Assembly: GCF_000517085.1 (NCBI RefSeq)
Contig: NZ_KI912107.1
Coordinates: forward strand, 1,240,398 to 1,304,397
DNA length: 64,000 nucleotides
Direction of reading: 5' to 3'
DNA from: Saccharicrinis fermentans DSM 9555 = JCM 21142
Lineage (GTDB): Bacteria; Bacteroidota; Bacteroidia; Bacteroidales; Marinilabiliaceae
In this document: positions 12,873 to 56,971 of the stretch, one piece after another
How the letters are laid out: every line of letters begins with the position of its first letter
Position numbering within the stretch: position 1 is the stretch's first letter
The notes under the pieces: model-generated
What the model saw: the letters and a program-made list of their open reading frames with translations, nothing else
What the model was told of the DNA's origin: nothing
Databases searched by the model: none
Position numbers and translations under genes: made by a program

Positions 12873-12924
12873 GACTTTAGTTTTTTCTATGTGGATGTGA
12901 ACAGAAAAAACTAGCAAAAAATAA

Positions 12925-13206
12925 GTGAACGGCAATGCTCCGTTTTTGAAAATGGTCCACGTGGGTGGCAATACTCCGTTTTGTGTTGTACTTCAAGCTT
13001 TTATATGCTCAAAATGGGTGGCAATGCTCCGTTTTTGACCCGTTTTTCACTACTTGTCAATTGACTGGGTGGCAATGCTCCGTTTTCTGAGCCATTTTTT
13101 CCTTTTTTTTGCGTTTTTGAACGGCAATGCTCCGTTTTTTTGACGCTTTTTAGGCAATTTTTGAGCCTGAAGAAAAACCGTTTTTTGGGTGGGTAAGCTC
13201 CGTTTT
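12925..13206. repeat. IS21 right-end repeat array (6 copies)
   Basis: Six copies of a ~20-bp repeat with consensus GGGTGGCAATGCTCCGTTTT (or GAACGGCAATGCTCCG) start at 12925, 12961, 13016, 13067, 13119 and 13187, with irregular spacing. Together with the two left-end copies this makes eight. They are the likely IstA binding sites. The number on this side is high for IS21 ends, where a few copies are more usual. Confidence 0.75.
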
Positions 13207-13217
13207 ATCTATCTGTA

Positions 13218-13457
13218 CCAACCAAGATTTGGCTCCTTCAATTTTTTATTACTGGCGAAACAAAATTGGAAGAGGTATTAGCGCATGAGCCAGATAGCTT
13301 CGTTTCACTAGAATTTAATTCTAATCCGTTAACGAAGGATAACCAAACGAGTCTACCTATCATAAAGAGTAAGCCTACTTTAAATAATGATGCACCCATT
13401 GAATTCGTATTTCCCAATGGGGTTAAGGTGCTATTAAGGGAGAATATAAACACGTAA
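13218..13457 (+). pseudogene. 3' part of the split IS66-type tnpA (with a frameshift)
   Basis: This continues the tnpA reading after the IS21-family element: TNQDLAPSIFYYWRN, then a change of frame at the A-run near 13261-13265, then LEEVLAHEPDSFVSLEF and an end of IEFVFPNGVKVLLRENINT, the typical TnpA C-terminus. One extra A in the run explains the shift. The gene was therefore damaged twice, by a frameshift and by insertion of IS21. The DNA-binding partner role of TnpA in IS66 transposition is lost. Confidence 0.7.
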
Positions 13458-13495: not shown

Positions 13496-13556
13496 ATGTT
13501 TCATTTACACGATAAACTTAAATACTTTCTATATCCGGCACCACTGGATGTTTTGT
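13496..13556 (+). pseudogene. N-terminal scrap of an IS66-type tnpB
   Basis: After the tnpA end, ATG 13496 starts MFHLHDKLKYFLYPAPLD, the conserved opening of IS66 TnpB. The match ends within ~20 codons at the left boundary of the 945-bp repeat at about 13557, so the rest of the IS66 element (tnpB, tnpC) has been replaced or deleted. Confidence 0.6.
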
Positions 13557-14503
13557 GGATTGTCAGTATAATTTTGGTCGGTTTTTCTTGTTGTTAGGGA
13601 TTCAAATTGTTTTATTTTTTTTTGAACCAATTTTCTAAAAGCTCATATGGAAAAGCTTTCGGGTTCTGTCAAGGGCGGCTGAGGCACGAAGCCGTTTATA
13701 TACCCTTGACAGGTTCTGAAAGCGACCTATCTTTGCTTTTGAAATTTGGTGATAATCTTTCATGATTCGTCTTTGGGTGAAGTTTTGTAATTATTATTAG
13801 ATGTTTGTTTCCAGGGAGTGTTAGTTTGTTAGTGTTAAGGTATTTTCCTCATCGTGATGAGTTTAGATTTGTGTTTATTTAGTTTGGGTGCTGTGTAGAT
13901 GAGGATGGTTTGTTTTTTTTAATGGGAGGTGGATGAGGAATGTATGAATTGTTGGGTGTGAGTAGTTTCTAGTTTTATTATTGGAGTGAGGAAGTGTCTG
14001 GAGAGGAGAGGCTGGCCAGTGGTTGCAATGAATGGAGCCTGTGGGACATTATTTCAATCTTTTGTTTAGTGTTTTTTCACAGGGGGAATGGGTTGCGACC
14101 ACTGGCCAATCTTGCGAGCCGACTGCGAGTGGAGCGAGGGTGGTACAAATAGTAGCTTGAGGAAGGATAGCGGTTTGTAGCATATGTTGGGAGCGAAGCG
14201 GACAACACAAAACCGCCTACCTGCCGGAGGCTATTGAATATTACTGGTTGCAGCCCGAAGCGACCTGCAGGCGAGCCTAACATGGGTAGCGGTTGATTTT
14301 TTAACTTATTGCTGGAGTTTACGGAAGGAATGGGTTAAAAAAGCAAAAGGAGCTACCGTGAGGAGGAGGGAGGAGCGCAAAAAGCATGACAAGCTGCGAA
14401 GCACCTTTGGCTTTACCGTTCTTTTTTTAGCGATTGAAGGTTAAGTGAAAAAAGTACGGTAAAGGCTTGGCGTGTGTTTTGCGGACGACTGAGGACGAAC
14501 ACC
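13557..14503 (+). repeat. ~945-bp structured direct repeat, copy A
   Basis: This ~947-bp non-coding stretch is repeated at 52994-53936 in the same orientation with high identity over its whole length. No open frame is shared by both copies. It contains several strong inverted repeats: the nested hairpin at 13666-13712, TGGCCAGTGGTTGCAA at 14013-14028 pairing with 14093-14108, GGTAGC...GCTACC at 14285-14357, and a 17-bp arm pair at 14411-14464 (CTTTACCGTTCTTTTTT with its complement, one mismatch). It cuts a tnpB remnant on the left and a coiled-coil gene on the right, so it arrived as a unit or through recombination. I do not recognise the family. Confidence 0.85.
13624..13751 (+). ncRNA. Candidate ~128-nt multi-branched structured block, copy A
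   Basis: The block begins AACCAATTTTCTAAAAGCT and ends GAAATTTGGTG; the two ends pair imperfectly. Inside lie AAGCT/AGCTT, then a nested hairpin (CTGTCAAGGG, CGGCT, 9-nt loop, AGCCG, CCCTTGACAG, 13666-13712), then AAAGC/GCTTT. Copies exist at 53062-53189 and, on the minus strand, at 45284-45410. The third copy changes GTCAAGGG/CCCTTGAC to GCCAAGGG/CCCTTGGC, a compensatory pair. It could be an RNA or a MITE-like DNA element; transcription is not shown. Confidence 0.5.
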
Positions 14504-14676
14504 TTATAACCAAAGAATTAGCTTCATCTGAAAGCAAGTTTACTGTTTTGCACAAACGCATCTCCGATTTAAGAGATAGCTCCAAAGAAATATATGTGAG
14601 CAAAGAACTATTCCACCAAACCATTAAGCAGCTTAACGACAAGCTCGACACTATTTTAAAATTTGTAGAGAGGTAA
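14504..14676 (+). pseudogene. Truncated small coiled-coil protein gene upstream of the holin-like gene
   Basis: The frame entering from the 945-bp repeat becomes protein-like only from 14504 (LITKELASSESKFTVLHKRI...), continues as a charged amphipathic helix and ends KLDTILKFVER. The residues upstream in the same frame belong to the repeat, so the native 5' end has been replaced. It ends 5 bases before the holin-like gene and was probably the first gene of that cassette. Function is unknown; a coiled-coil accessory protein is all that can be said. Confidence 0.5.
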
Positions 14677-31964: not shown

Positions 31965-33128
31965 TCATTCTAGTTGGTGCAATATCCTTGTGCGAACCAT
32001 TATGCCTTTATTGCATTTGGGGCATATGCAAGGATCCTTTCCTATTAATGCTCTTAACACTTCATATGAGGTAAGGCCTTCGAGGTTTGACAACCACATA
32101 TTTTCACCCACTAGTGCAATTACCTGTTCTCGTTTACCATGTATATGTACCGTTGCAAGTATGCCAACATATCTGATTTTAAAGAATCCGCTAGGTAAGA
32201 CGTGATGTATAAAACGCCTCACAAATTCAAGTTGATTTAAGGTCATTTGTTTTTGCTTGCTATTTTGTCTGTAATCTTTATAGGTAAAGCTCACTTGCTT
32301 GTCCGATAAAGATGTTAGCCTATTATTAGATATAGCTACCCGATGGGTGTATCTGCCCAAGTATTGTAATACACTGTTGATACCCCCAAACGCCTTTTTA
32401 CAGTATACATTCCATCGTTTACTGTACAGTTCTGATTTCAACATTTGAGCTCCTTCAAACTCCTTAGGTAACCTCAGTTTTTCCTTGATCAGTAGTTTTT
32501 CGAGTTGCTTAACTAGTATACCTCTAAACATGCCAGACAATGCCTTTACGGGCACAAAGAACTTCTTGGGCGAAGCAACCCATTCCATACCATCCGTAGA
32601 CAGGCCGCCAGCGGGAACCAGCATATGAATATGGGGATGATACATTAATGTTTGCCCCCAGGTATGCAGTACACATAGTGCTCCAACATCAGCACCTAAA
32701 AATGAAGGATTGCGTCCTGCATTTTGTAAAGCTTGGGAGGCAGAACGAAACAGTAAGTCATAACATGCTTGTTGGTTGATGTAAAACAATGGATGTAGCT
32801 CCCTTGGTATGGTAAATACAATATGAAAGTAGCGTCCGGGCATTAATCGACTAGTGAGCTTATTGACCCATTGCTGCTGCTTTAAATACTGACACTTGGG
32901 GCAATGTCTATTGCGACAAGAGTTATAGGACTGTTGACTGTAACTACAGCTGCTGTTATTACAATACGCAATATGACCGCCTGCTTCTGATGTACGGCAC
33001 CTTGTTATAGCTTCAATAGCTTTTTGTTGTTCTTTGTTCAACCTTAACTTGGTAGCAATATCATCTTGACAGCTCCTCACAACATCGGCCACTTCTATTT
33101 TCTGTTTACTATTTTCGGTGTGACTCAT
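31965..33128 (-). CDS. IS91-family transposase (Y2 HUH type)
   Basis: 387 aa. The N-terminal zinc-finger motif includes CNNSSCSYSQQSYNSCRNRHCPKCQ (Cys/His cluster about residues 55-80). The replicative transposase core has YFHIVFTIPREL and the HUH motif YHPHIHMLVPAGG. Family members use a catalytic Tyr (pair) in the C-terminal part for rolling-circle transposition. Length is normal and no interruption is seen. It follows the tyrosine recombinase with a 4-base overlap. Confidence 0.9.
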   Translation of the reverse strand: MSHTENSKQKIEVADVVRSCQDDIATKLRLNKEQQKAIEAITRCRTSEAGGHIAYCNNSSCSYSQQSYNSCRNRHCPKCQYLKQQQWVNKLTSRLMPGRYFHIVFTIPRELHPLFYINQQACYDLLFRSASQALQNAGRNPSFLGADVGALCVLHTWGQTLMYHPHIHMLVPAGGLSTDGMEWVASPKKFFVPVKALSGMFRGILVKQLEKLLIKEKLRLPKEFEGAQMLKSELYSKRWNVYCKKAFGGINSVLQYLGRYTHRVAISNNRLTSLSDKQVSFTYKDYRQNSKQKQMTLNQLEFVRRFIHHVLPSGFFKIRYVGILATVHIHGKREQVIALVGENMWLSNLEGLTSYEVLRALIGKDPCICPKCNKGIMVRTRILHQLE

Positions 33129-33934
33129 GGCTGTGCCTGTTTTATTGGAATTAACAAATTGGGAACTTCGCCAAGGTAAGGGTGAGCCAAATGAAGATAA
33201 CCTGAGGTTGTTTTTAGTGAACTGTGTCCCATCAGTAACTGCAACCGTTTCAAATTGATACCTCTTTCAAGCATATGAGTAGCAAAACAATGTCGTAACA
33301 CATGAGGCGATACGCCTTTATTTATACCTACTGATAAGGCAGCACGTGATACTATCTTACGAAAACTTGTTGCGGAATATTTCTTCCCTTTTTTAAAGCC
33401 CTCAAAAAGATACTTCGAAGGACGATACTGTTTAAAATAAATTCTGAGTTGTTCTAATATATCCTCTGGAAGTGGTACTTCTCGGCTTTTATTACCCTTG
33501 CCCTTTATGCGTACAACCAAACGTGCCGAATCTATTTGCTCAGGCAACAAACTTAGAGCTTCTTCGCACCGCATGCCCGTTGCATAAGTCAACATCATTA
33601 ATGTACGATGTTTGACATTATATGAACTTGTCACCAAACGATAGGCATCTGACTGAGACAAAACCGTGGGTAGTTTCTTCGCTACTCTTGGACGCTTTAT
33701 CTTAATGCCATCCCACTTGTTCCCAAGTATATCCACCCAAAATATTTTCCAGGCACTAATCATTTGGTTGATGGTACTGTTCGAAAGCTTTTTTTCTTGA
33801 AGAAGATAATAGCAGAAATCTTTTACTTCCTGATGACTAAGTGTTGACGGAGACCTCCTGTAATACTTTGCCAAAATCGAGAGCATAGATACATAAGTAT
33901 CTACAGTTCTCTCACTGTAACCGCGTAAGCGCAT
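33125..33934 (-). CDS. Tyrosine recombinase of the IS91-like element
   Basis: 269 aa with a short SAM-like N-terminal domain (MRLRGYSERTVDTYVSMLS) and a catalytic domain containing YATGMRCEEALSL (first Arg), HVLRHCFATHML (His/Arg box) and MGHSSLKTTSGYLHL (His and nucleophile Tyr). All expected catalytic residues are present. It overlaps the IS91-type transposase by ATGA. Recombinases like this accompany Bacteroidota IS91-like elements and probably assist integration or resolution. The gene appears intact. Confidence 0.88.
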   Translation of the reverse strand: MRLRGYSERTVDTYVSMLSILAKYYRRSPSTLSHQEVKDFCYYLLQEKKLSNSTINQMISAWKIFWVDILGNKWDGIKIKRPRVAKKLPTVLSQSDAYRLVTSSYNVKHRTLMMLTYATGMRCEEALSLLPEQIDSARLVVRIKGKGNKSREVPLPEDILEQLRIYFKQYRPSKYLFEGFKKGKKYSATSFRKIVSRAALSVGINKGVSPHVLRHCFATHMLERGINLKRLQLLMGHSSLKTTSGYLHLAHPYLGEVPNLLIPIKQAQP

Positions 33935-35410: not shown

Positions 35411-36679
35411 ATGACTAGTAATCAAACATTTGCAATATCATTTGTTGCAAGGGCAGACAGAAAGGGAAACGAAAAGAATACATTAAACATTTATGCAAGG
35501 ATTACGGTAGGCGGAAAACGAGCTGAGATTTCTGTTGTTAAATCTGTCGCTAAAGAATCCTGGAATTCTTCAAAGGAGAGGTTGAATAGTAAATATAAAG
35601 ACTTTCGTCAAGGTAATGCTTACATTGATCAGGTTCGATCGAAATTAACGAGTATTTATAGAGAATTATCGCTTAAGGGGGCATTTATATCTCCTTTGGT
35701 AATTAAGAATTGCTTTATTGGTATTACAGATACAGGAAAAACACTTATAGAGCTATTGGACTATCATAATGAATCTCAAAAAAATACATTGATGCCAGGG
35801 ACTCTTAAAAATTATTTTACTACTCAAAAATATGTGCATAAATATCTAAAGGAATGTAAGAAAATTGATGATATACGCTTGGGTGAGATTAATTATAAAT
35901 TTATTACTGAGTTTGAGGCTTATTTGAGGGGGTATGAACCTATAGATCATCATAAGGCTTTATCTAATAATGGGGTGATGAAGCATTTGGAAAGGTTGCG
36001 GAAAGTGACTAGTATGGCTGTGCGTTTAGGTTGGCTGGAAAAGGATCCTTTTGAAAAGTATAAGTTATCTTTCGTGAAGGTTGATCGCGAATTTTTAACG
36101 GATAGGGAGTTAGAGGTGTTGAGGGAGAAAAGCTTTCAGATTAAAAGACTGCAGTTTGTTAAAGATTTATTTGTTTTTTCGTGTTATACTGGTTTGACTT
36201 ATATTGATGTGCACAATTTAAAGCGTGATAATTTGATTTTAGGTATTGATGGTGAGTATTGGATTCAGACCATTAGACAAAAGACTCATATGGTTGTTAA
36301 TATTCCGATTTTGCCAGTTGCGTGGGAAATTATTAATAAGTATAAGGATGATCCAAGAGCTGTTAATAATGGAACTATTTTTCCAAAATTATCGAATCAG
36401 AGGTTGAATAGTTATTTGAAAGAAGTTGCTGATTTATGTGGAATAACTAAGACCTTAACGTTTCATATGGCACGACATACGTTTGCTACAACTGTTACCT
36501 TGAGTAATGGAGTACCTATTGAAACAGTTAGTAAGGTGTTAGGCCATAGTAATTTATCCACAACCATGATTTATGCAAGAGTGTTGAAAGATAAGATTAG
36601 TGCTGATATGAAAGATTTGAAGCAAGTGTTGCAAAATAAAGAGGATAATGCTGGGTTGAAACGGCATGTTAAAAGATAA
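35411..36679 (+). CDS. int: IntDOT-like tyrosine integrase
   Basis: 422 aa with three domains: N-terminal arm-binding (FAISFVARADRKGNEKNTLNIYARITVGGKR), core-binding, and catalytic. In the catalytic domain SCYTGLTYIDVHNL has Thr where most recombinases have the first catalytic Arg. The CTnDOT integrase also lacks this Arg, so the enzyme may well be active. Later boxes are complete: HMARHTFATT, VLGHSNLSTTMIYARV. It is the first gene of the 35-42 kb element and is preceded by candidate arm sites and a terminator. The start MTSNQTFAIS follows an A-rich leader, typical of Bacteroidota. Confidence 0.9.
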   Translation: MTSNQTFAISFVARADRKGNEKNTLNIYARITVGGKRAEISVVKSVAKESWNSSKERLNSKYKDFRQGNAYIDQVRSKLTSIYRELSLKGAFISPLVIKNCFIGITDTGKTLIELLDYHNESQKNTLMPGTLKNYFTTQKYVHKYLKECKKIDDIRLGEINYKFITEFEAYLRGYEPIDHHKALSNNGVMKHLERLRKVTSMAVRLGWLEKDPFEKYKLSFVKVDREFLTDRELEVLREKSFQIKRLQFVKDLFVFSCYTGLTYIDVHNLKRDNLILGIDGEYWIQTIRQKTHMVVNIPILPVAWEIINKYKDDPRAVNNGTIFPKLSNQRLNSYLKEVADLCGITKTLTFHMARHTFATTVTLSNGVPIETVSKVLGHSNLSTTMIYARVLKDKISADMKDLKQVLQNKEDNAGLKRHVKR

Positions 36680-36779
36680 TTTTTGATTAGTATTGTTGGT
36701 ATTTAGTCGTTGAATTATTATGTTTATGGTTGGGATTCTCTACAAATCAACCTTTTTACATTCAAATCGACTAAAAAAA

Positions 36780-37940
36780 ATGCCGTATTTATTGGAGCAA
36801 TTTGAAAGGGTTGTTGAGTATATCGGCAACCCTAAAAACTGTGGTGTTAAATTTCAATTTGAGAACGAAAAGCAATTCGTTTATAGCATAAGTTTATTTG
36901 ATTTAAAGCAAGGTTTGTTGCTTTTGGCTGCATCTAAAGCTTTGCCGGGTATTGTGTGTCAGCAGGTACGATTGTATCAGAGTAGTTCGATAAGAATGCT
37001 AAAACATTTGCATGATAGACCTGATTGCTGTTGTTTCTCAGCAAGGTGTTGGGGTGATATTTTTTATGGGGTTGTGAATACACTTATTAGTTTCATCAAC
37101 TTTTTACATATACAATTTCCGGAGTATTTTGATAAAGAGTTGATTGCTCCGGCGCTCTACTATGATTACTATAGGGTTCGTTTTAAAGATAAAGTAGAGA
37201 AAATATTGAAATTAAAGGTTGATGCTGAAAAGCTTGAATCTATAAAGAAGGTTGTTGATTATTTTAAGGAGTTGGGGTATACAAATTGTTCGTTTAGAAG
37301 AATCTGGTATATAGATAAACTACTTACTAAGATTAATACAAAGATTTGTAATGAGCATGTAATGGGTGATAAATTTGAAGAATTGGTTAAGCTGATTATT
37401 TCGTATAATTTTAATTCAACAGAGGTTTATCATCAAATCATTGAATGGATCAAGCGCGATTTAGCCATGGGGACCAATGTAAATGCTGTACTTGAAAAGT
37501 TACAATGTTATAAAAAACAAGTATCGCAGATTATGGTGATAAAAGGAGATGGTTTTTCGCGTAAATCAAAAAAATTAAAAATATCGATTATTAATTGGAT
37601 CAATAAGGAAATGAATTCATTTAATTATCATGTTCATATATTTGATGAGGTTAAGAAGGTAAAGGAACCGGAGCAACTGTATATTAGGCCTCAAAAAATA
37701 CAGACTAATTTATCTGTTGCGGAGATAGCATGCGTGCTTAGGCAGTTCATTGAAGTGGGTATTATATATGCAGATAACAAAAAAGAAATCTTTAGATTGG
37801 TTTCTGAAATTTTTGCATCAAAGCATAATCATCAAATATCATATAAGAGCTTAAATAATAACTTTTTTAATATTGAACTTTCTACATATAAATCTACAAA
37901 ACAACTGTTTCTTAAACTTTTTAGATCCATCGAAGAATGA
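36780..37940 (+). CDS. RteC-like protein
   Basis: 386 aa from ATG 36780 (MPYLLEQFERVVEYI); an in-frame ATG at 36720 gives a less likely 406-aa form. The C-terminal ~90 residues (TNLSVAEIACVLRQFIEVGI ... NKKEIFRLVSEIFASK ... ISYKSLNNNFFN) match the RteC family of Bacteroides conjugative transposons, where RteC activates excision. The N-terminal two thirds are helical and less conserved. It lies 100 bases after the integrase in the same direction. A regulatory role in excision is inferred from the family. Confidence 0.75.
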   Translation: MPYLLEQFERVVEYIGNPKNCGVKFQFENEKQFVYSISLFDLKQGLLLLAASKALPGIVCQQVRLYQSSSIRMLKHLHDRPDCCCFSARCWGDIFYGVVNTLISFINFLHIQFPEYFDKELIAPALYYDYYRVRFKDKVEKILKLKVDAEKLESIKKVVDYFKELGYTNCSFRRIWYIDKLLTKINTKICNEHVMGDKFEELVKLIISYNFNSTEVYHQIIEWIKRDLAMGTNVNAVLEKLQCYKKQVSQIMVIKGDGFSRKSKKLKISIINWINKEMNSFNYHVHIFDEVKKVKEPEQLYIRPQKIQTNLSVAEIACVLRQFIEVGIIYADNKKEIFRLVSEIFASKHNHQISYKSLNNNFFNIELSTYKSTKQLFLKLFRSIEE

Positions 37941-38031
37941 TATGATTTAGATATACATTTTATGGTTTAAGTATCTTAAAAGTTTGCGGTTAAAAAAAAT
38001 ATATCCTTGTAACTTATTGGTAATCTTTGGG

Positions 38032-38061
38032 GTTGTTGGGGGTTGTACAACCCCCAACAAC
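38032..38061. repeat. 30-bp perfect palindrome
   Basis: GTTGTTGGGGGTTGT followed directly by its exact reverse complement: 15-bp arms, no loop, no mismatch. It is strikingly GC-rich in AT-rich surroundings and stands in the 178-bp gap between the RteC-like gene and the HTH gene. There is no T-run, so it is not a standard terminator. A dimer operator, a replication or resolution site, or a cruciform are the options. Confidence 0.9.
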
Positions 38062-38118
38062 TGTTTTCGTATTGCTTTTGTATTTTTCTTTGTGTCATAT
38101 CAATATTAATCAATAAAT

Positions 38119-38388
38119 ATGGCAACAGAAATTATTACAACAGACGATTTGCGGGAGTTCAAAATTGAACTTCTGGAAGAGCTTGAGAAACTTCTCAAAC
38201 AGAACTCAGGGAGTCAGCATAAGAAATGGTTGAAATCCTATGAGGTGAAGGAACTTTTAAATGTGTCTTCTGGTACACTTCAACATCTGCGAGTGAGTGG
38301 TATGCTGCCCTATACAAAAGTTGGAGGTACAATCTATTACGATTACAATGATATTCAGAATATGATTACTCAAAACAAATGTGGGTAA
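38119..38388 (+). CDS. Helix-turn-helix (MerR/excisionase-like) protein
   Basis: 89 aa. An N-terminal coiled-coil helix (LREFKIELLEELEKLLKQ) is followed by a winged HTH of the excisionase type: KSYEVKELLNVSSGTLQHLRVSGMLPYTKVGGTIYYDYNDIQNM. This form is common in Bacteroidota conjugative and integrative elements, often beside integrase or replication genes. It starts 57 bases after the 30-bp palindrome, a natural candidate for its binding site. The role could be excisionase or regulator of the replication genes downstream. Confidence 0.8.
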   Translation: MATEIITTDDLREFKIELLEELEKLLKQNSGSQHKKWLKSYEVKELLNVSSGTLQHLRVSGMLPYTKVGGTIYYDYNDIQNMITQNKCG

Positions 38389-38409
38389 TGCTTTTTCAAA
38401 CAATTGGTT

Positions 38410-39117
38410 ATGAACTTCATCCAACATTTGCTGGATGCGTTTGCGAAAATGGACAGGGAAAAGCTTCTGAAAGCATACCACGTTAGCCTTTATATTTCTC
38501 TGTTTAGGATATGGAACCGTAACCGTTTCGATAATCCTATTTGGGTAAATCGGGATGAGTTAAAAACTATGTCAAAGATTGGGTCTAATAATACTTACTA
38601 TAAGGCTCTTAGAACACTGGAGGATTGTGGTTTTATTAAGTATACACCGTCTTTTGATCCGCAGGTAGCTAGTAAAGTTTACCTGTACACTTTTGATATA
38701 GGTACCTGTACACCACCTATATCAAAAGTGAACCCTTTATATAAACATATAAAATATATATACTCTATATATAGTAATGAAGAAAATCAAAAAGAGATGA
38801 AAGAAACTAATATGAATGATAAGTCGAAAAAAGCGTTTCAGAAACCACCAATTGAGCATATTCAAATCTATTTTGAACAAAAAGGTTATTCGGAAATAGA
38901 AGCTCAACGTTTTTTCAATTACTACGAAAGCAATGGCTGGATGGTAGGGGGTAGATCGAAAATGAAAGATTGGAAAGCAGCTGCTCGTAATTGGATGTTA
39001 AATATTCAACGTTACCAAGTAAATTCATTTGAGAAGCAAGGAACCAATGCACAGGACAAAATGGCATCGAAGGAACAAAGGAATTTTTCCTCGCGAAATT
39101 ATAATGAACCTCTTTGA
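38410..39117 (+). CDS. Phage O-like replication initiator with an origin inside its gene
   Basis: 235 aa from ATG 38410 (MNFIQHLLDAFAKMDREKL). The N-terminal ~100 residues look like a winged helix (WVNRDELKTMSKIGSNNTYY, ALRTLEDCGFIKYT). The C-terminal ~75 residues (IEHIQIYFEQKGYSEIEAQRFFNYY ... MKDWKAAARNWML) match the terminal domain of phage-type initiators. Between them, codons at 38681-38800 carry repeats and an AT-rich block that look like an origin. It is followed 33 bases on by a DnaC-like loader. This is the order and logic of lambda O and P. An initiator function is inferred from these features. Confidence 0.75.
   Translation: MNFIQHLLDAFAKMDREKLLKAYHVSLYISLFRIWNRNRFDNPIWVNRDELKTMSKIGSNNTYYKALRTLEDCGFIKYTPSFDPQVASKVYLYTFDIGTCTPPISKVNPLYKHIKYIYSIYSNEENQKEMKETNMNDKSKKAFQKPPIEHIQIYFEQKGYSEIEAQRFFNYYESNGWMVGGRSKMKDWKAAARNWMLNIQRYQVNSFEKQGTNAQDKMASKEQRNFSSRNYNEPL
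38681..38800. other. Candidate replication origin within the initiator gene
   Basis: Two copies of ACCTGTACAC (38681-38690, 38704-38713) lie with a perfect 15-bp inverted repeat ACTTTTGATATAGGT (38689-38703 and complement 38715-38729, 11-base spacer). Immediately after, 38733-38790 is almost pure A+T (TATATAAACATATAAAATAT and onwards), a likely unwinding region. Iterons plus an AT-rich block inside an O-like gene is the lambda arrangement. Confidence 0.65.
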
Positions 39118-39150
39118 ATTTCTTTAACATGAAAATCTAAAATAAGAGTG

Positions 39151-39798
39151 ATGTTTTACAATATCCAGAATAACTATATCGTCTATAACTATCAAAAGAG
39201 CCTTGATTTTATGGTAAAGAAGGGCAGGGAGATATACGGTGAGTGTTTTAGCTTACAGAGTGCGGATATGCCTATTATTCGAAAATTGTTTGTTTACATG
39301 ATTAGGGATGAGGAACTAATGGTTGAGGAAGGTTTAGATTCGCGAAAAGGCATAATGCTTTGTGGACCTATTGGGGTAGGAAAAACTTCTTTGATGCATT
39401 TATTGAGGCTGATTTTGCCAGAAAGCAAAAGCTATATGATGAAATCATGTAGGGATATCAGTTTTGAATTTCATAGGGATGGTTATGATGTAATTGACAG
39501 ATATAGTAAAAAAAGCCTCAGGTTTAATCATGGAATAATGAAAAAACAGACCATCTGTTTTGATGATTTGGGTGCTGAGCAAAACTTAAAACATTTTGGC
39601 AATGAATGCAATGTATTGTCTGAAATATTATTATCCAGATATGATTTGTTTATTTCTGATAGCCTTATCACTCATATAACAACAAATCTAAATGCTACTG
39701 AGATAGAAAAACAATATGGAGTTAGGGTAAGAAGTCGTTTAAGAGAAATGATGAATGTGGTTTCTTTTTCGGATGAGGCACCAGATAAGCGTAGATAA
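39151..39798 (+). CDS. DnaC-like AAA+ helicase loader
   Basis: 215 aa from ATG 39151. P-loop GIMLCGPIGVGKTSLMHLL (about residues 68-80), Walker B TICFDDLGAEQ, and sensor and Arg-rich C-terminal motifs (HITTNLNATEIEKQYGVRVRSRLREMMN) are those of DnaC/DnaI-type helicase loaders and IstB relatives. Position after an O-like initiator suggests it brings the host DnaB helicase to the element's origin, as lambda P does. It is one of the most conserved-looking genes of the element and has no frameshift. Confidence 0.8.
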   Translation: MFYNIQNNYIVYNYQKSLDFMVKKGREIYGECFSLQSADMPIIRKLFVYMIRDEELMVEEGLDSRKGIMLCGPIGVGKTSLMHLLRLILPESKSYMMKSCRDISFEFHRDGYDVIDRYSKKSLRFNHGIMKKQTICFDDLGAEQNLKHFGNECNVLSEILLSRYDLFISDSLITHITTNLNATEIEKQYGVRVRSRLREMMNVVSFSDEAPDKRR

Positions 39799-39810
39799 AA
39801 TATATTTGTT

Positions 39811-40371
39811 ATGAAGAATAATTTATTAAAATCAGCTTTATTACAAAAAGGACTTCCTCTATTGGCAAATGTACTTACTGGAGGAACAGCTAAGCCGGCT
39901 TTTGAATTGGTGAAATCAATATTAAGCTTAAAGGTTAATGATGACGATGGTTTTTTAGAGCAGTTAACTCAAAAGCCGGACCTCATCGATAAGTTACGTG
40001 AATTTGAAATTAATCAAGAGATAGAACTTCAAAAACTAGCTTTACAATCAACTCGTTTAGAGATTGAAGAATCAAAAGCGTATTTACTAGATAAACAGAG
40101 TGCACGTTTAAGAGAGACGCAGTTGGCACAAGCGACTGGACAACGTGATTGGTTAATGTTGTCGTTGGCGATTGTAGTCGTAATAGGATTTTTTAGTCTG
40201 ATTTCAATTATGATATTAGGCGATAATGCTCAAAAAGTAACCAATAATGGTCCCGTAAATCAATTGTTTGGCGCTTTGGTTGCGGGGTTTAGTATGGTAC
40301 TATCGTACTTTTTTGGGTCAAGTAAAAGTTCGGCAGATAAAACTAAAACGATTGCTAATCAAAGGATATAA
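39811..40371 (+). CDS. Holin-like protein with two transmembrane segments
   Basis: 186 aa. An amphipathic N-terminal region (KSALLQKGLPLLANVLTGGTAK) and a long charged helix (residues ~55-105) are followed by hydrophobic segments at about 112-136 (WLMLSLAIVVVIGFFSLISIMIL) and 148-166 (FGALVAGFSMVLSYFFGSS), with a Lys-rich tail. It starts 12 bases after the DnaC-like gene and precedes the DUF5675 gene by 7 bases. The topology parallels the protein at 14682. A membrane-pore or lysis role is suggested by context only. Confidence 0.6.
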   Translation: MKNNLLKSALLQKGLPLLANVLTGGTAKPAFELVKSILSLKVNDDDGFLEQLTQKPDLIDKLREFEINQEIELQKLALQSTRLEIEESKAYLLDKQSARLRETQLAQATGQRDWLMLSLAIVVVIGFFSLISIMILGDNAQKVTNNGPVNQLFGALVAGFSMVLSYFFGSSKSSADKTKTIANQRI

Positions 40372-40378
40372 GTTTATT

Positions 40379-40840
40379 ATGGATTTAACAGTTTTACGTT
40401 ATAGTTCAGGGGTAGAGAGTACTCTGGGGTTGTTGTATATTGATCAAAAATTTGCTTGTTATACTCTTGAAGATGAACATCGTGAGAAGAAAGTGTATGG
40501 AGAAACCAGGATACCTGCAGGGAGGTATAAGGTTATACTCAGAACGGTAGGCTCTCACCATAAGCGTTACAAGCAAAAGTTTCAGGAGTTTCATAAAGGT
40601 ATGCTGCACATTACAAATGTACCTAATTTTACAAATATTTTAATCCATATAGGAAATACAGATGATGATACAGCAGGTTGTTTGTTGGTGGGAGAATCGA
40701 GTTATTCAAATGTAAATCAGCCAGGGAGAATTAATAGTAGTACAATTGCTTACAAAAGGATTTATCCTATCATTGTTAACGCAATAGGAAAAGGCGATGA
40801 GGTTTGGATAAATTATTTGGATGAGGTAAAGTTTGAATGA
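40379..40840 (+). CDS. DUF5675 family protein
   Basis: 153 aa from ATG 40379 (MDLTVLRYSSGVESTLGLLYIDQ). Residues ~1-125 match DUF5675: FACYTLEDEHREKK, GETRIPAGRYKVILRT, MLHITNVPNFTNILIHIGNT and DDTAGCLLVG, with a His and a Cys in a layout like L,D-transpeptidase/YkuD-type active sites. The family occurs in phages and integrated elements of Bacteroidota, usually next to a holin-like gene. A cell-wall role is likely but not proven. It lies 7 bases after the holin-like gene, in the same direction. Confidence 0.8.
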   Translation: MDLTVLRYSSGVESTLGLLYIDQKFACYTLEDEHREKKVYGETRIPAGRYKVILRTVGSHHKRYKQKFQEFHKGMLHITNVPNFTNILIHIGNTDDDTAGCLLVGESSYSNVNQPGRINSSTIAYKRIYPIIVNAIGKGDEVWINYLDEVKFE

Positions 40841-40905
40841 ATACAAACAGGATTAAAATGAATGAGGTTTGAGAATGTGTTTCTGACAAATAGGGAAAGA
40901 GATTA

Positions 40906-41109
40906 TTAATCATACAGATACTCTTGAATTGTTTCAATTGAAATGCCGGAATATTCGGCAAATTCTTTAGTTGTGATGAACTGTTGTTTCTCTTTTCCTA
41001 ATTCCTTTTTTATTTTTGTTAAAAGTCGTTGGGCGGATTTTTCACTTTTGCCAGTTATCCTTTGTATATCTTTAGGATAAATGCAAATCCGTTTTAGTTT
41101 AATGTCCAT
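40906..41109 (-). CDS. Small HTH protein, possible element regulator
   Basis: 67 aa, the only minus-strand gene of the 35-42 kb element. Basic start (MDIKLKRICIYPKDIQRITG) and two short HTH-like stretches (SEKSAQRLLTKIKKELG and TTKEFAEYSGISIETIQEYL). It is probably a DNA-binding regulator. Two tandem 11-bp repeats lie directly upstream of its start codon at 41112-41133, a plausible autoregulatory operator. No family name can be given with certainty. Confidence 0.6.
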   Translation of the reverse strand: MDIKLKRICIYPKDIQRITGKSEKSAQRLLTKIKKELGKEKQQFITTKEFAEYSGISIETIQEYLYD

Positions 41110-41111
41110 GG

Positions 41112-41133
41112 TGCTTTATCGATGCTTTATCTA
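41112..41133. promoter_or_regulatory. Tandem 11-bp repeat upstream of the small HTH gene
   Basis: TGCTTTATCGA and TGCTTTATCTA, adjacent, differing at one base, 3-24 bases upstream of the HTH start on the minus strand. One helical turn per unit is consistent with an operator for a small HTH dimer. Confidence 0.4.
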
Positions 41134-41287
41134 TACTGTATTCATACCTTTGAATGGCATAATCGATACTCTAAGATAATAAAAAAAATAGGGTCAAAAC
41201 GGCCAAAATGGGACAAATTGGACACTGTTATTTGCAATTTAGGACATAATGCTATTACATTAAAGGTGTTGTTTAAATTAGTTGATT

Positions 41288-42046
41288 ATGGCAAGGCAAA
41301 AGAGTATTTTGAAACTAGAAGGAAGTATTGGGGATGTTTCTTTTTACAAAAGTGGAGGGGAATATTTGGCCCGAACTAAAGGGGGCGTAGATGGAGATCG
41401 AATTAAAACAGATCCAGCATTTGCGCGTACCCGGGAAAATGGAGCTGAGTTTGGGGTTGCCGGTAAGGCAAGTAAATTGTTGCGCACTGCATTTAAAGCA
41501 CCTATTGCTGCGATTGCAGATAACAGAGTTGCTAGCAGGTTAACTACCCAAATGTTGAAAGTGGTGCAGTCTGATACTGTGCATTCGAGAGGAGAGAGGA
41601 CTGTTCAGGATGGTGATTTAGGTCTTATTCGGGGGTTTGAGTTTAATGTGAATACAGGATTAGAAGATGTTGTAAAAGCAGCTTATTCTGTAACATTTGA
41701 TAGAGTTTCTGGTGAAGCTAGTGTTGCTATTGATTTTAGTAATCCACGTTTAGAGTTAAATCAGGTTGATGGTGCAGACCAGGCACAAATACTTATTGGG
41801 TTGGCAGCAGTTGATTTTGAGAATAGCGAATATGAGGTGGATGTGGTAGAAGCAGAAGCTATTGCTATTGATTCAACAGAAGCTGTTGTTGTTGAGCAAA
41901 CGGCTGCCATTTCGGCGAATAGTACCCGTCCTGTGTTTGTGATTGTTGGTATTATGTATTATCAATCAGTTAATGAAGAGTTATACCTTATCAATAGTCA
42001 GGATAGCAGAGCGCTGGCATTAGTAGCGGTGGATCAGCCAGAATAA
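41288..42046 (+). CDS. Conserved mobile-element protein of unknown function (254-aa type)
   Basis: 252 aa from ATG 41288 (MARQKSILKLEGSIGDVSFY). The N-terminal ~60 residues are basic and Gly-rich (GEYLARTKGGVDGDRI, DPAFARTRENGAEFGVAG). The rest is beta-rich and acidic (VDVVEAEAIAIDSTEAVVVEQ) with a C-terminal sheet (STRPVFVIVGIMYYQ). No catalytic motif and no signal peptide are seen. A basic head plus a beta-sandwich-like body would suit a structural or DNA-coating protein, but this is speculation. I have the impression that similar proteins accompany holin/DUF5675 genes in Bacteroidota elements; I cannot check that here. Confidence 0.6.
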   Translation: MARQKSILKLEGSIGDVSFYKSGGEYLARTKGGVDGDRIKTDPAFARTRENGAEFGVAGKASKLLRTAFKAPIAAIADNRVASRLTTQMLKVVQSDTVHSRGERTVQDGDLGLIRGFEFNVNTGLEDVVKAAYSVTFDRVSGEASVAIDFSNPRLELNQVDGADQAQILIGLAAVDFENSEYEVDVVEAEAIAIDSTEAVVVEQTAAISANSTRPVFVIVGIMYYQSVNEELYLINSQDSRALALVAVDQPE

Positions 42047-43960: not shown

Positions 43961-44040
43961 TAAGTAAGGTCTCTTGAAGGTTATATTGAGACTGTAAACT
44001 CAACTCTGTCCATAATTTAAAAATTATATTTTTGAAGATT

Positions 44041-45278
44041 ATGGAAAAAAAAGAATTGAACCCCGAGTATATCGCTATGCGTGATATGGCACTCGAACAG
44101 TTAAAGAGCGGTAAATCCCTGACGGGTAAGGGTGGAGTATTTGCACCCATTATAAAGGAGTTTTTGGAGAGCGCTTTGGAGGCCGAGATGGACGAGCATT
44201 TGACCTCCGAGCGTCGCTCCCAGGGCAATAAGCGCAACGGCAAGGGTAACAAAACGGTTAGATCCGAAGGCGGTAGTGTGGACATTGAACCGCCCTATGA
44301 CCGCCACGGGGATTTTGAGCCCGAAATAGTAAAGAAGCGGCAGACCGTTTTGGCAGACAGCCTTGCCCCCAAGATTATTAGCCTTTACGGCAAGGGTATG
44401 AGCCTACGTGACATCGGATCATATATCCGGGACATGTACGACGTTGAGGTTTCCCCACCGTTTTGAGCAACATTACCGACAGGGTGATCCCACAGGTCAA
44501 GGAGTGGCAGAACCGACCCCTAGACGATGTTTACCCCCATTGTTTGGATGGATGCTATGCAACTACAAGGTAAGGGACGGGGGAAGGGTAGTATCGCCCG
44601 GCCGTATACAAAATTTTGGCTATCAACAAAAGCGGGCAGGAAGGAACTCATAGGGATGTACATTTCCGAAAGCGAGGGCGCTAACTTCTGGCTGTCGGTA
44701 TTGACAGACCTAAAGAGCCGCGGAGTAAAGGATATCCTGATTGCCTGTACGGATAATCTGACGGGTTTTTCACAGGCGATATTAAGCATATTCCCCGATA
44801 CAGAAATTCAAAAGTGCGTGATACACCAAATTCGGAATTCGCTCAAATACGTGGTCTCCAAAGACCAGAAAGAATTTATGAAGGACTTGAAAAAAGTGTA
44901 CCAGGCCCCAACCAAGCCCCAACCAAGTCACAAGCCGAGAGCGAGCTGATTAACCTAGAAGTAACGTGGGGCAAAAAGTACCCCGTGGTGCTGCGCTCGT
45001 GGAACGACAACTGGGAGGAGCTGTCCGCTTACTTTAAATATGACGCCCCCATTAGGAAGCTGATTTATACCACAAACGCCGTTGAAGGCTTCCACAGGCA
45101 GGTTCGCAAGGTAACCAAGACCAAGGGTGCGTTTTCCAGCGACATGGCTTTGATGAAATTCATTTATCTGGCCACCGAAAACATATCGAAAAAGTGGACT
45201 CAACCCATACAGAACTGGGCATTGACAGCCCAGCAGCTTTGTATCATGTTTGAGGGGAGGTTTGTTATCAATCTGTGA
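44041..45278 (+). pseudogene. IS256-family transposase with several frameshifts
   Basis: Reading pieces: 44041-44466 (MEKKELNPEYIAMRDMALEQ ... DIGSYIRDMYDVEVS), a shifted stretch to ~44610, 44527-44949 (IVWMDAM ... ACTDNLTGFSQAIL) and 44814-45278 (TTNAVEGFHRQVRKVTKTKG). The Asp residues of VWMDAM and CTDNLTG and the Glu of NAVEGFH are the DDE triad of this family. A 10-base direct duplication (CCCAACCAAG twice, around 44907-44926) causes one shift; others lie near 44455 and 44570-44610. The intact protein would be ~410 aa. It cannot encode a functional transposase as read. Confidence 0.8.
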
Positions 45279-45283
45279 GCACA

Positions 45284-45410
45284 CACCAAATTATAAAAGC
45301 GAAGGTAGGTCCGCTTATGAGTTCTGCCAAGGGTATATAAACGGCTTCGTACCTCAGCCGCCCTTGGCAAAAATCATAAGCTCCCCGATGAAGCTTTTAG
45401 AAATTGGTTA
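45284..45410 (-). ncRNA. Candidate ~128-nt structured block, copy C
   Basis: On the minus strand: AACCAATTTCTAAAAGCTT, AAGCT/AGCTT hairpin, then TGCCAAGGG, CGGCT, loop, AGCCG, CCCTTGGCA (45325-45369), then AAGCG/CGCTT, ending AATTTGGTG. It lies 6 bases after the IS256 transposase stop, inside that element. Compared with copies A and B it has paired changes in the long stem (GTC/GAC to GCC/GGC). Confidence 0.5.
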
Positions 45411-45504
45411 AAAGAAAAATAATGAGTTAATTTGAAATCGTAAAAAAACAACAGGACAGAGTTCAGCTAACATTCCCGTTATAACCATATGAGAATTATA
45501 GTAC

Positions 45505-52410: not shown

Positions 52411-52993
52411 ACAAAAAAAATCTTTTGCAAGCAGTAGTATCTGCTTGTGTGTTAGGGCTTGCAAATGTGCTATTTGTACGTTTGGCTTTCAAGGGTTTAT
52501 ACTATGTTATTTCGGTTTTTTTGCATGAACTCTAAGGTGTATATTAGTAATTGTTTTTATTTATATTATATGCCGTTATTTAGTTGTTTTTACTCCAATA
52601 ATGGGATATAAAGACAATGTTATAATATATTCAATGTTATCAGATTTAGCAAATAAATTTACTATTTGAAATTATTTTGGTTATGAAACTACAGGTATGT
52701 TGTCAAAGGTATAGGGTTGTTATTAATATTTTTGTCCGGCTCATATTTTTTATGTGGAACTAGTCGGGCAAGATTGCCGCAAGTGCGCTTAGAGAAGATT
52801 CTCGTCAGGGGCGGTTCAGGGGCTATTGCTATGGGCAACGCTACTTTCTACTGGTTGGTAGTTTCGTAATTAAATAGGAGATATTCATTAACTGTTTTGC
52901 CAACTTTATATCTCTTCAATTCAATATTTAATAATGGTTTTAATGTTGATTTCTGTTCGTATAAGGTATAATTAGTTTGAAGTATGGGGTGTT
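52411..52993. other. Intergenic, holds a hairpin repeat and no gene
   Basis: Between the IS66 end and repeat copy B. It contains the degenerate hairpin at 52424-52465 and one TTTTTTATGTGG box near 52748. Around 52760-52850 there is a relatively GC-rich patch (GGGCAAGATTGCCGCAAGTG) without a protein-like frame. Confidence 0.5.
52424..52465 (+). repeat. Degenerate hairpin repeat, copy 2
   Basis: TTTGCAAGC ... GCTTGCAAA, perfect 9-bp arms around AGTAGTATCTGCTTGTGTGT. Similar to 45726-45763. The two copies lie just outside the Gabija-like operon plus IS66, in the same orientation. Confidence 0.5.
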
Positions 52994-53936
52994 GGATTGT
53001 GAGCTGGATTTTGGCCGTTTTTCTTGTCGTTTGGGATTCAATTTGTTTTATTTTTTTCTTTGAACCAATTTTCTAAAAGCTCATATGGAAAAGCATTCAG
53101 AACCTGTCAAGGGCGACTGAGGTACGAAGGCGTTTATATACCCTTGATAGGTTCTGAATGCGACCTATCTTTGCTTTTAAAATTTGGTGAAAATTTTTCA
53201 TGATTTGCCACTTTGGTGAAGTTTTATAATTATTATTAGATGTTTGTTGCCTGGGTGTGTTAGTTTGTTAGTGATAAGGCGTTTTCCTCATCGTGATAAG
53301 TTTAGATCAGCGTTTTTCTAGTTTGAGTGTTGTGTGGATGGAGTGTTTTTTTTCAATGGATGGTGGATGAGGAATGTATCAATTGTTGGGAGAGAGTAGT
53401 TTCGAGTTTTACTATTGGAGTGGGGAAGAGTCTGGAGTGAAAAGGCTGGCCAGTGGTTGCAATGAATGAACCTTGTGGATATTACCTCAATTTTTGTTTA
53501 GCGTTTTTTCACAGGGGGAATGGGTTGCGAACACTGGCCAATCTTGCGAGCCGACTGCGAGTGGAGCGAGGGTGGTACAAAGAGGAGCTTGAGGAAGGAT
53601 AGCGATTTGTAGCATATGTTGGGAGCGAAGCGGACAACACAAAACCGCCTACCTGCCGGAGGCTATTAAATATTTATGGTTGCAGCCCGAAGCGACTTGC
53701 AGGCGAGCCTAACATGGGTAGCGGTTGATTTTTTAACTTATTGCTGGAGTTTACGGAAGGAATGGGTTAAAAAAGCAAAAGGAGCTACCGTGAGGAGGAG
53801 GGAGGAGGGCAAAAAACATGACAAGCTGCGAAGCACCTTTGGCTTTACCGTTCTTTTTTTAGCGATTGAAGGGTTAAGTGAAAAAAGTACGGTGAAGGCT
53901 TGGCGTGTTTTTTGCTGACGACTGACGACGAACACC
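52994..53936 (+). repeat. ~945-bp structured direct repeat, copy B
   Basis: Near-identical to 13557-14503 over its length, same strand, 39 kb away. The main hairpins are kept (53104-53150, 53447-53540, 53843-53897) with scattered differences, several of which preserve pairing (G-T in place of G-C). The short frames across it differ between the two copies and are not genes. Downstream it abuts unrelated DNA and the relic of a nuclease gene. Confidence 0.85.
53062..53189 (+). ncRNA. Candidate ~128-nt structured block, copy B
   Basis: Same layout as 13624-13751: end pairing AACCAATTTTC/AAATTTGGTG, long hairpin CTGTCAAGGG ... CCCTTGATAG (53104-53150, one G-T). The inner stem (CGACT/AGGCG) has a mismatch, so this copy is slightly decayed. 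Confidence 0.45.
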
Positions 53937-54031
53937 GATTTACCTGTGTTTTAAATTACTATCTATTAAGATTTTTATGCCAGAGGACCTGCTGTCCGTT
54001 AAAGTTTTTAGGGTGTAAATTATCGTTGGAT

Positions 54032-54287: not shown

Positions 54288-55295
54288 ATGGCTACAAATA
54301 AAAATGCTACTATCCGATATCAAATTTTAAATCGCTGTTTCCGCAATCCTGGGCGCAAATATTACATTGAGGATTTAATAGACGCATGCACTGATGCTTT
54401 ATTAGATGTAGATCCTTACTCAACAGGAGTTAAACGCCGCCAAATATTTGATGATATCAAGTTCATGAAAGACTCTAAGGGATTTGATGCACCGATAGAA
54501 GCATTACCAGAGGGGAGAAAGCGCTATTATCGTTATTCAGATTGTAACTTTTCGATTAATAATCAACCGCTGAATGAACAGGAGGCGCAGCAGCTAAAGG
54601 AATCGCTGATGACTTTATCAAGATTTAAAGGTTTGCCCCAATTTGATTGGGTTGAGGAAATAAAAGTGCGTTTGGAACAAAGTTTTAGTTTAAAAACGGA
54701 AGATAATATATTAAGTTTTGATGAGAATCAATATTTAACAGGACGAGAATATATTGAGGATTTATACAATGCCATAATAAATAAGCAAGTTATAAAAGTT
54801 GTTTATAAACCGTTTTCTGTTGAAGAAGAGATTGTATTTGAGTTACATCCATATTATCTTAAGCAATATAATAACAGGTGGTTTTTGTTTGGGAAGAACG
54901 AGTTATTTGATTGTATCACCAATGTAGCATTGGATAGAATACATAAAATAGAAAACTCAAGGCTCGCTTATAGAGAAAATACGGATATAGATTTTGATGC
55001 GTTTTTTGATGATGTTATCGGTGTATCTATTACTCCAGAGACAAGTATACAGAAGATTTTACTAAAAGTGAATCGTAAACAATGGAAATATATTGAAACC
55101 AAGCCATTGCATGGTTCGCAGAAAGTAAAAGAGGTTACGGATGAAAGTGCCATAATTCAAATTGATGTGATACCAAATTATGAGTTAGAAGCCTTATTGC
55201 TATCGTTTGGAGAAAGTGTAGAAGTGTTATCCCCGCAAGATTTCAGAAATAAGATAAGGGAAAGAGTATTAAGCTTAAATAATATTTATAGTTAG
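54288..55295 (+). CDS. WYL-domain transcriptional regulator at the head of the BREX locus
   Basis: 335 aa. An N-terminal winged-helix part (TIRYQILNRCFRNPGRKYYI, GVKRRQIFDDIKFM) is followed by a WYL-type domain (YNAIINKQVIKVVYKPF, HPYYLKQYNNRWFLFGKNE) and a WCX-like C-terminus ending IRERVLSLNNIYS. WYL regulators such as BrxR often stand upstream of BREX operons, where they repress defence genes and may sense nucleic acid or nucleotide ligands. It precedes brxA by ~490 bp, with one small HTH gene between. Confidence 0.82.
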   Translation: MATNKNATIRYQILNRCFRNPGRKYYIEDLIDACTDALLDVDPYSTGVKRRQIFDDIKFMKDSKGFDAPIEALPEGRKRYYRYSDCNFSINNQPLNEQEAQQLKESLMTLSRFKGLPQFDWVEEIKVRLEQSFSLKTEDNILSFDENQYLTGREYIEDLYNAIINKQVIKVVYKPFSVEEEIVFELHPYYLKQYNNRWFLFGKNELFDCITNVALDRIHKIENSRLAYRENTDIDFDAFFDDVIGVSITPETSIQKILLKVNRKQWKYIETKPLHGSQKVKEVTDESAIIQIDVIPNYELEALLLSFGESVEVLSPQDFRNKIRERVLSLNNIYS

Positions 55296-55608
55296 TGTGC
55301 AGGAACTTTGCACACCTAGATAATTACTTTGTATTAAAGTTCGCAGCTCAATATAAAAGAATGGAATAGCATAATTTTATAGAAGGTTAGATTTAACTTG
55401 TTATATGGCCAGAGAAAAAGATATATTTAGTAGAGACTAAGGCGAAAGAGTGATTCACAAGAGATTGCAAAGTAACGATCAATTAATAAGCTTGCTTAAG
55501 CATTAATTATGAACCCATCATAAAATATTAATCAAGTGATGAAGAGTAATACGAATTAAATAATAATTTTGTGTCAGTAAAACTTTAATTTATATTAAAG
55601 AGTAACTG
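55296..55608. promoter_or_regulatory. Intergenic, likely promoter region of the BREX operon
   Basis: A 313-bp gap between the WYL gene and the small XRE-type HTH gene. No protein-like frame. It is the natural place for the BREX promoter and the binding sites of the two regulators, but I cannot point to a clear motif. Confidence 0.35.
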
Positions 55609-55782
55609 ATGAAAGAATTGTTGAAAGCAAAGGGGATCAAGCAAAAGTGGCTAGCTCAAAAGATAGGGGTTAGCGAGGTGACTGTAAGTAATTGGGTTAA
55701 GGAAAAAAGTTTTCCCAGCAATAAGCACCTGGAGAAATTAAGCCAATTACTAGATGTACCCATTAAAGAGTTGAAGCATTAG
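55609..55782 (+). CDS. 57-aa XRE-type HTH protein
   Basis: From ATG 55609: LLKAKGIKQKWLAQKIGVSE, then VTVSNWVKEKSFPS and a C-terminal LSQLLDVPIKEL, a bare XRE/Cro-type HTH domain. It ends 3 bases before the brxA start, so it is the first gene of the BREX unit. Probably a regulator of the operon; it is too short to hold more than the DNA-binding domain. Confidence 0.75.
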   Translation: MKELLKAKGIKQKWLAQKIGVSEVTVSNWVKEKSFPSNKHLEKLSQLLDVPIKELKH

Positions 55783-55785
55783 ACC

Positions 55786-56391
55786 ATGGAGGATGTAATA
55801 AAATACGATTTTTCATTTACAGCCTCATCTTTGCGGCGAAATGACATGGTGATGGTGGCGAAGAATTTAATTGGTAGAGAGAAACTGAATTTGGAGCAGG
55901 AATTAGGAAGAGGGAAAGGCGCTACCGGAAAGAGGATTTTACGAGAATGCAATAAAAGAATAGCAAAACTCACCCATGAACAGATTGATTTGCTGATTGA
56001 TGGAGATCTGATAACTCAAAACCACATGGCCTTTTTGGCGATATGTAAACTGCACTCTTTTATTAGAGACTTTGTGGTGGATGTGGTTAGAGAGAAACTT
56101 TTGGTATATGATTATGGGTTGACTGAAGGAGAGTATATTTCCTTTTATCGTAGAAAAGCAGAGTTGCATAGTGAAATGGAAAGCTTAAAAGAATCAACAC
56201 AGAGGAAGATTAAGCAGGTTACTTTTAAAATACTTGAGCAAGCAGGGCTTATTGATGGAGTGAAGACAAAAGTCATTCAAGCCCAGATACTCGACCATAA
56301 AGTATGCAGAACCATTGTAAGTGATGATAAAGAATGGCTTAAAGTGTTTTTATTAACCGATCAGGATATAAACAGTTGGACAGAATACTAA
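55786..56391 (+). CDS. brxA: BREX protein BrxA (DUF1819)
   Basis: 201 aa: KYDFSFTASSLRRNDMVMVA, ending NSWTEY, all-helical, with features of the DUF1819 family (short helical repeats around LITQNHMAFLAICKL and IKQVTFKILEQAGLI). BrxA is a conserved small DNA-binding component of type 1 BREX, needed for some functions of the system. It is followed by brxB with a TAATG overlap, and brxC then starts at 56972. Its neighbours fix the assignment. Confidence 0.88.
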   Translation: MEDVIKYDFSFTASSLRRNDMVMVAKNLIGREKLNLEQELGRGKGATGKRILRECNKRIAKLTHEQIDLLIDGDLITQNHMAFLAICKLHSFIRDFVVDVVREKLLVYDYGLTEGEYISFYRRKAELHSEMESLKESTQRKIKQVTFKILEQAGLIDGVKTKVIQAQILDHKVCRTIVSDDKEWLKVFLLTDQDINSWTEY

Positions 56392-56969: not shown

Positions 56970-56971
56970 CC

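Follow-up and report, generated by a model that had tools for sequence, protein, structure and literature searches.

What are two long, closely similar non-coding sequences doing on either side of an island of defence and metal genes? The question is raised by a stretch of 64,000 nucleotides of Saccharicrinis fermentans DSM 9555 = JCM 21142 (Marinilabiliaceae, Bacteroidales; contig NZ_KI912107.1, positions 1,240,398 to 1,304,397, forward strand), referred to below as the window and numbered from its first letter. The two sequences are called copies A and B, and we judge it moderately likely that each is a copy, now diverged from the other, of the non-coding end carried by one family of Bacteroidota integrative elements.

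BLASTN self-comparison of the window aligns A (13556-14503) with B (52993-53936) on the same strand over 954 columns, with 90.7% identity and 16 gap positions (E=0), a similarity far beyond chance. The copies are direct repeats of ~950 bp each, spaced 39.4 kb apart, and a first-pass annotation of the window rightly described them as non-coding and hairpin-rich: they contain several long hairpins and share no coding frame. A single open reading frame of at least 80 amino acids falls inside a copy, in B (53676-53918; 80 aa), and no counterpart is listed in A. Homologues extend the right edges to 14511 in A (...GAACACCTTATAACC) and to 53944 in B (...GAACACCGATTTACC), the BLAST alignment falling ~8 nt short. 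No third full copy was found by BLAST or covariance model in the whole 5.98-Mb genome. An assembly duplication was rejected because the copies have diverged by 9%. Each copy is composite, consisting of a leader of ~470 nt followed by a folded domain of ~480 nt. Substitutions between A and B number 64 in 500 columns of the leader vs 20 in 464 columns of the domain (p=2e-6); since it has diverged three times less than the leader, the folded domain is constrained within the host genome.

Counterparts of the last ~480 nt occur in other genomes as blocks in fixed order (GCGAGCCGACTGCGAGTGGAGCRAGGGTGG; GCAGGCGAGCCTAACATGGG; GTGAGGAAGAGG..GGAGCGCAAAAAGCATGACA; TTGGCGTG.TTTTTTGCTGAC; GACGAACACCGATTTACC). 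When GTDB contigs were scanned by pattern for the first block, it turned up in the Marinilabiliaceae (Alkaliflexus, Geofilum, Marinilabilia, Natronoflexus, Plebeiobacterium) as well as in further orders of the Bacteroidota. Model R1, a covariance model of the core of this unit with A and B in its training set, matched 25/71 genomes of the host family, 29/393 of the order and 14/392 of the phylum, a sporadic spread of the kind expected of mobile DNA. A and B match R1 at E~3e-32, both being training sequences; independently of R1, A aligns with a unit of another genome (L044, on G016:C261) at 74% (E=7e-35). The search of related genomes and the covariance model that the first-pass annotation had suggested yielded homologues with co-varying helices, and relatives of the repeat occur in mobile elements of other genomes. 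Units measure 430-982 nt between their end motifs, the end boxes being GGTAAA/TTTACC and variants, and homology between related units stops sharply at the unit 3' end in most pairs. Most genomes hold one or two units, and same-orientation arrays are also found. At gathering score, Rfam (including GOLLD, ROOL, OLE and the group II intron) gave no match in the whole window and 23 homologous loci, an unrelated tRNA aside, and a sensitive Rfam scan of A returned sub-threshold chance hits only. A group II intron was rejected for lack of an Rfam match. A phage element was likewise rejected, IMG/VR providing one match at a contig edge and most units lying away from phage-type genes; some units do associate with MARQKG/DUF6266-like, holin and lysozyme genes. 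Two individual cases were also recorded. In L183 (G216:C84, ~1736-1810), a tRNA-Cys-like sequence was recognised by eye between the unit core and its 3' end. At G029:C4:244541 and G080:C118:1515, all that is left of the unit is its final ~50 bp, right after the stop codon of an apparent glycine-oxidase-type host gene.

The genes beside the units in other genomes point to an integrative element. Seventeen units from diverse genera have, at the 3' side on the opposite strand, genes for a CHC2/Toprim primase (PF01807), XA and/or XB, the last two being tyrosine recombinases (PF00589); XB and XA adjoin L044. The neighbour order, seen whole or in part at these 17 units, is primase, XA, XB, cargo and reverse-complemented unit, and the same set stands in tandem in Alkaliflexus and in G670, a complete Bacteroidales genome. 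G670 carries at least 8 full and many partial units, all oriented alike within 175 kb; beyond each come a leader and then a variable toxin tip. The nearest 3'-side gene is on the opposite strand in 45/61 units (p=3e-4), the spacing between gene and unit being loose (17/36 within 120 bp). Many of these genes were assigned, by sequence reading and not by family search, to toxin-antitoxin (TA) toxins, ORF6N, AbiEii, Fic, DUF262 or Abi. In L187, a search for direct repeats on both sides of one element found nothing convincing.

In other genomes, the leader meets polymorphic toxin genes at a fixed position. Sixteen leader copies of G670 adjoin the toxin gene at one exact base, ...TTCACT being followed directly by TGGAAATACCAATGGGA, and 13 other genes read ...GGCACCGAACTT directly before the same TGGAAATACCAATGGGA, which codes for WKYQWD after a HELGH motif. 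Variable toxin tips lie 3' of TGGAAATACCAATGGGA both in the leader-joined genes and in the others. The leader joins a toxin gene at the same codon in Alkaliflexus, Geofilum and Marinilabilia, and the junction is ~450-560 bp from the fold. The parsimonious reading of these sequences would be that insertion is site-specific and takes place at the joint preceding the toxin tip.

The unit itself forms a co-varying fold. At the four pairs of the helix closing the core, pairing is retained through double changes in 6, 12, 0 and 1 sequences, respectively, and long-range helices co-vary across genera. Helix P1 joins both unit ends (GGTAAA/TTTACC, GGAAAA/TTTTCC, GGAAAT/ATTTCC, GGGAAT/ATTTCC); variants of helix MB include GGGCT/AGCCC, GGTTT/AAACC and TAGTT/AACTA, and those of helix M4 include AAGCT/GGCTT, AGGCT/AGCCT and AAACT/GGTTT. 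When partners were shuffled, a procedure that ignores sequence kinship, the observed pairing was matched in 9/2000 shuffles for P1 and 0/2000 for each of MB and M4. Folding is strand-specific: the fold z-score is lower, indicating stronger predicted folding, on the unit strand in 26/31 units (p=2e-4). The sequence GCGNAGC occurs 83 times on the unit strand vs 4 times on the reverse strand (~24 expected), with all four bases at N; GCGAAGC is known as an exceptionally stable DNA mini-hairpin (PMC4686876). Hairpins with GNA triloops number 95 vs 53 expected (1.8-fold), and those with GNRA tetraloops 35 vs 36 expected. One 23S rRNA locus of the host genome, used as control, shows the opposite usage (GNRA 13 vs 4 expected, GNA 3 vs 6 expected). 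The loop usage as a whole is read as favouring a predicted fold of single-stranded DNA over one of RNA.

Taken as the end of an integrative element, the unit would belong to a complete element composed of a CHC2/Toprim primase gene, two tyrosine recombinase genes, cargo (often TA or defence genes), and then the reverse-complemented folded unit with its leader. The leader would join a polymorphic toxin gene at the fixed codon before the variable tip, as it does in at least four genera, and each insertion would give the toxin gene a new tip and displace the old one as an orphan behind the element. The folded strand would be single-stranded DNA, laid bare when the element is transferred or replicated; its fold could be read in cis by the element primase, for which it would mark an initiation site, or by the recombinases, for which it would be a structured recombination site. 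We advance only tentatively this fuller proposal, namely that an element end whose ~0.5-0.9-kb strand folds as single-stranded DNA is used by the primase and the recombinase pair for toxin-tip swapping.

Several observations weigh against the element-end reading. Neither primase nor XA nor XB is encoded within 9 kb of A or B, and the tyrosine recombinase that the window does encode (33125-33934) is a distant relative of XA and XB, paired with an IS91-type transposase. An XB relative at E<=1e-20 is absent from 16/25 unit-bearing genomes of the host family. The P1 5' arm was not found in A or B, and compensatory A-B substitutions over the predicted minimum-free-energy fold gave no visible signal. 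The loop statistics are inflated by shared ancestry of the units, and the RNA control is a single rRNA locus. The insertion step is itself inferred from the junctions.

Much of the fold would also suit a large trans-acting structured RNA resembling GOLLD or ROOL, an accessory gene of mobile islands whose neighbours would be typical island cargo, and this we regard as rather unlikely. The units resemble GOLLD, ROOL and OLE in size, complexity and long-range pairing, here including the end-to-end P1; their folding is strand-specific with G-U-compatible changes, and GOLLD and ROOL are likewise RNAs of unknown function borne by phages or other mobile elements (PMC12286853). However, an RNA gene would have no need of primase and recombinase genes beside it in the constant arrangement and orientation seen at 17 units, and the units have no Rfam match and use loops unlike those of rRNA, with their GNA excess and no GNRA excess. 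Less probable still is an integron-like site, at which every cassette would terminate in a very large fold of attC type and a recombinase would insert cassettes beside it. An attC site is a palindrome of 57-141 nt with GTTRRRY/RYYYAAC boxes. Proposed as a single-strand site, the fold resembles it in that the opposite nearest gene in 45/61 units makes the folded strand the bottom strand of the gene it follows, as in attC; the TA and defence cargo, the sharp edges at the unit end and the same-orientation arrays also fit integron cassettes. The unit is nevertheless branched and several-fold larger than attC and bears GGTAAA/TTTACC and variants instead of the integron boxes; most genomes hold one or two units, with loose gene-unit spacing, and the fixed junction is in a toxin gene ~450-560 bp away and not at the fold base. 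As a candidate integron integrase, the window recombinase at 33125-33934 was scored with TIGR02249 and gave 154 bits against a cut-off of 265.

The repeats could finally be inert remnants, that is an old non-coding segment with an IS256 end, which recombination duplicated and chance preserved. The lack of a P1 5' arm and of a nearby recombinase at A and B would agree with this, but the threefold lower divergence of the folded domain (p=2e-6) and the co-varying helices of the family make it very improbable. Because A and B keep leader and folded domain with no primase or recombinases nearby, they look stranded, and on the integrative-element reading they are most likely non-autonomous element ends flanking the defence and metal island. 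Mobilisation in trans is conceivable, since the host genome has elsewhere an XB relative of full length (37%) and a 90%-identical fragment. The recombinase pair of the window was rejected as XA/XB, consisting of the distant recombinase and an IS91-type Y2 transposase. The Y2 transposase gene overlaps the recombinase gene upstream of it (31965-33934).

An IS256/Mutator-family insertion sequence (IS) with ten genome copies matches, at its 3' end, positions 57-196 of A, so that 140 bp of each leader correspond to the hairpin at the IS 3' end; A and B differ from the family in having neither Mutator transposase nor terminal inverted repeats, and the remainder of the unit is unrelated. The possibility that the repeats are fragments of a known IS, raised in the first-pass annotation, holds accordingly for 140 of ~950 bp. 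Most of the repeat is a separate structured family, and a simple IS256 remnant was rejected on these grounds. A compensatory double change separates the outer stems of the module hairpin in A and B (GCTTTC/GAAAGC vs GCATTC/GAATGC). A plasmid search gave two short matches only, both to this hairpin. Across IS256-family and other IS-like elements (the ten IS256-family copies of window and genome; L014, L017-L023, L037), the loop region of the ~140-nt terminal hairpin is almost invariant (CAAGGGCGGCTGAGGNACGAAGCCGTTTATATACCCTTG), and the outer stem varies with pairing kept.

Around the repeats, domain search agrees that they bracket a Shedu gene (PF14082) and an OLD/Gabija-like gene. Given their orientation, recombination between A and B could possibly delete or circularise the 39 kb in between. 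Copy A had been thought to interrupt two genes: a coiled-coil frame is indeed 5'-truncated by A, but tnpB is not interrupted, the IS66 small-ORF remnant upstream stopping at its own stop codon near 13456, ~100 bp before A. On its 3' side, A is followed by this 5'-truncated coiled-coil frame and a holin and lysozyme set, which is not the usual unit neighbour, and a WYL-BrxA-BrxC (BREX) operon (54288-60490) begins ~350 bp after B. The interval also holds a small phage-like integrated element (35411-42046) encoding a tyrosine integrase, a helix-turn-helix protein, a DnaC-like ATPase, a 186-aa PHROG-family protein, DUF5675 and a 254-aa MARQKG/DUF6266-like protein, with a perfect intergenic 30-bp palindrome (38032-38061); its relatives lie near units in other genomes, with holins and differing endolysins. 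Several GGTGGCAATGCTCCGTTTT copies at 12920-13210, beside an IS21-type istA/istB pair, are probably its end repeats.

Table. Coordinates of the repeats, their parts and the related IS in the window
Feature	Position	Strand	Evidence
Copy A, leader and folded domain	13556..14511	+	Self-BLAST; right edge set by homologues
Copy B, leader and folded domain	52993..53944	+	Self-BLAST; right edge set by homologues
A, IS256-family 3'-end hairpin module, 140 bp	13612..13751	+	BLAST match
B, IS256-type hairpin module, compensatory double change in stem relative to A	53050..53189	+	
A, long imperfect hairpin preceding first conserved block	14013..14108	+	
A, conserved block m1 (GCGAGCCGACTGCGAGTGGAGCGAGGGTGG)	14114..14143	+	Pattern scan
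B, conserved block m1	53546..53575	+	
A, core (blocks m2-m3, co-varying helix)	14245..14368	+	Covariance model R1 match
B, core	53677..53800	+	Covariance model R1 match
A, helix M4 (GCAAAAAGCATGACAAGCT / AGGCTTGGCGTGTGTTTTGC), enclosing terminal stem 14411-14464	14377..14482	+	
IS256/Mutator-family IS, broken transposase frame, one of ten copies, source of shared hairpin (45284-45422)	43988..45477	+	PF00872, inverted repeats

Among the Bacteroidota, polymorphic toxins acquire different tips, and orphan tips are left behind in arrays. If a recombinase-primase element has its fixed junction at the tip joint, the route of this change would become directly testable. A natural co-varying fold of single-stranded DNA of such size would be unusual, and the family, which has no Rfam entry, would permit the recognition of many unannotated repeats in Bacteroidota. 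A literature search (DUF6266, Bacteroidetes ornate RNA, integron-like arrays, primase-recombinase-toxin elements) returned no description of the large co-varying single-strand fold, of the primase or of the fixed junction at the toxin tip.

The nearest described system is recombinase-associated acquired interbacterial defence (rAID) of Bacteroidales, whose defining features are a tyrosine recombinase, immunity genes in the same orientation and conserved motifs between genes (PMC12247911). On that description, the two systems appear alike in their predicted tyrosine recombinase, co-oriented genes of toxin or immunity type and intergenic motifs, and both occur in Bacteroidales; the related arrangement here, with two recombinases and a primase, is present at the 17 relatives and not at A or B. 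The unit may prove to be an environmental relative of a repeat already noticed there. It is set apart from that description by its two recombinases and primase, by toxin tips besides cargo, by the fixed toxin-gene junction and by the ~0.5-0.9-kb co-varying fold. Integrative elements that use a tyrosine recombinase to attach to genes are similar in carrying recombinase genes by a non-coding end and in a fixed intragenic junction. Unlike these, the elements described here have their own CHC2 primase and a large fold, and their target is the joint before the toxin domain, where insertion appears to swap the tip.
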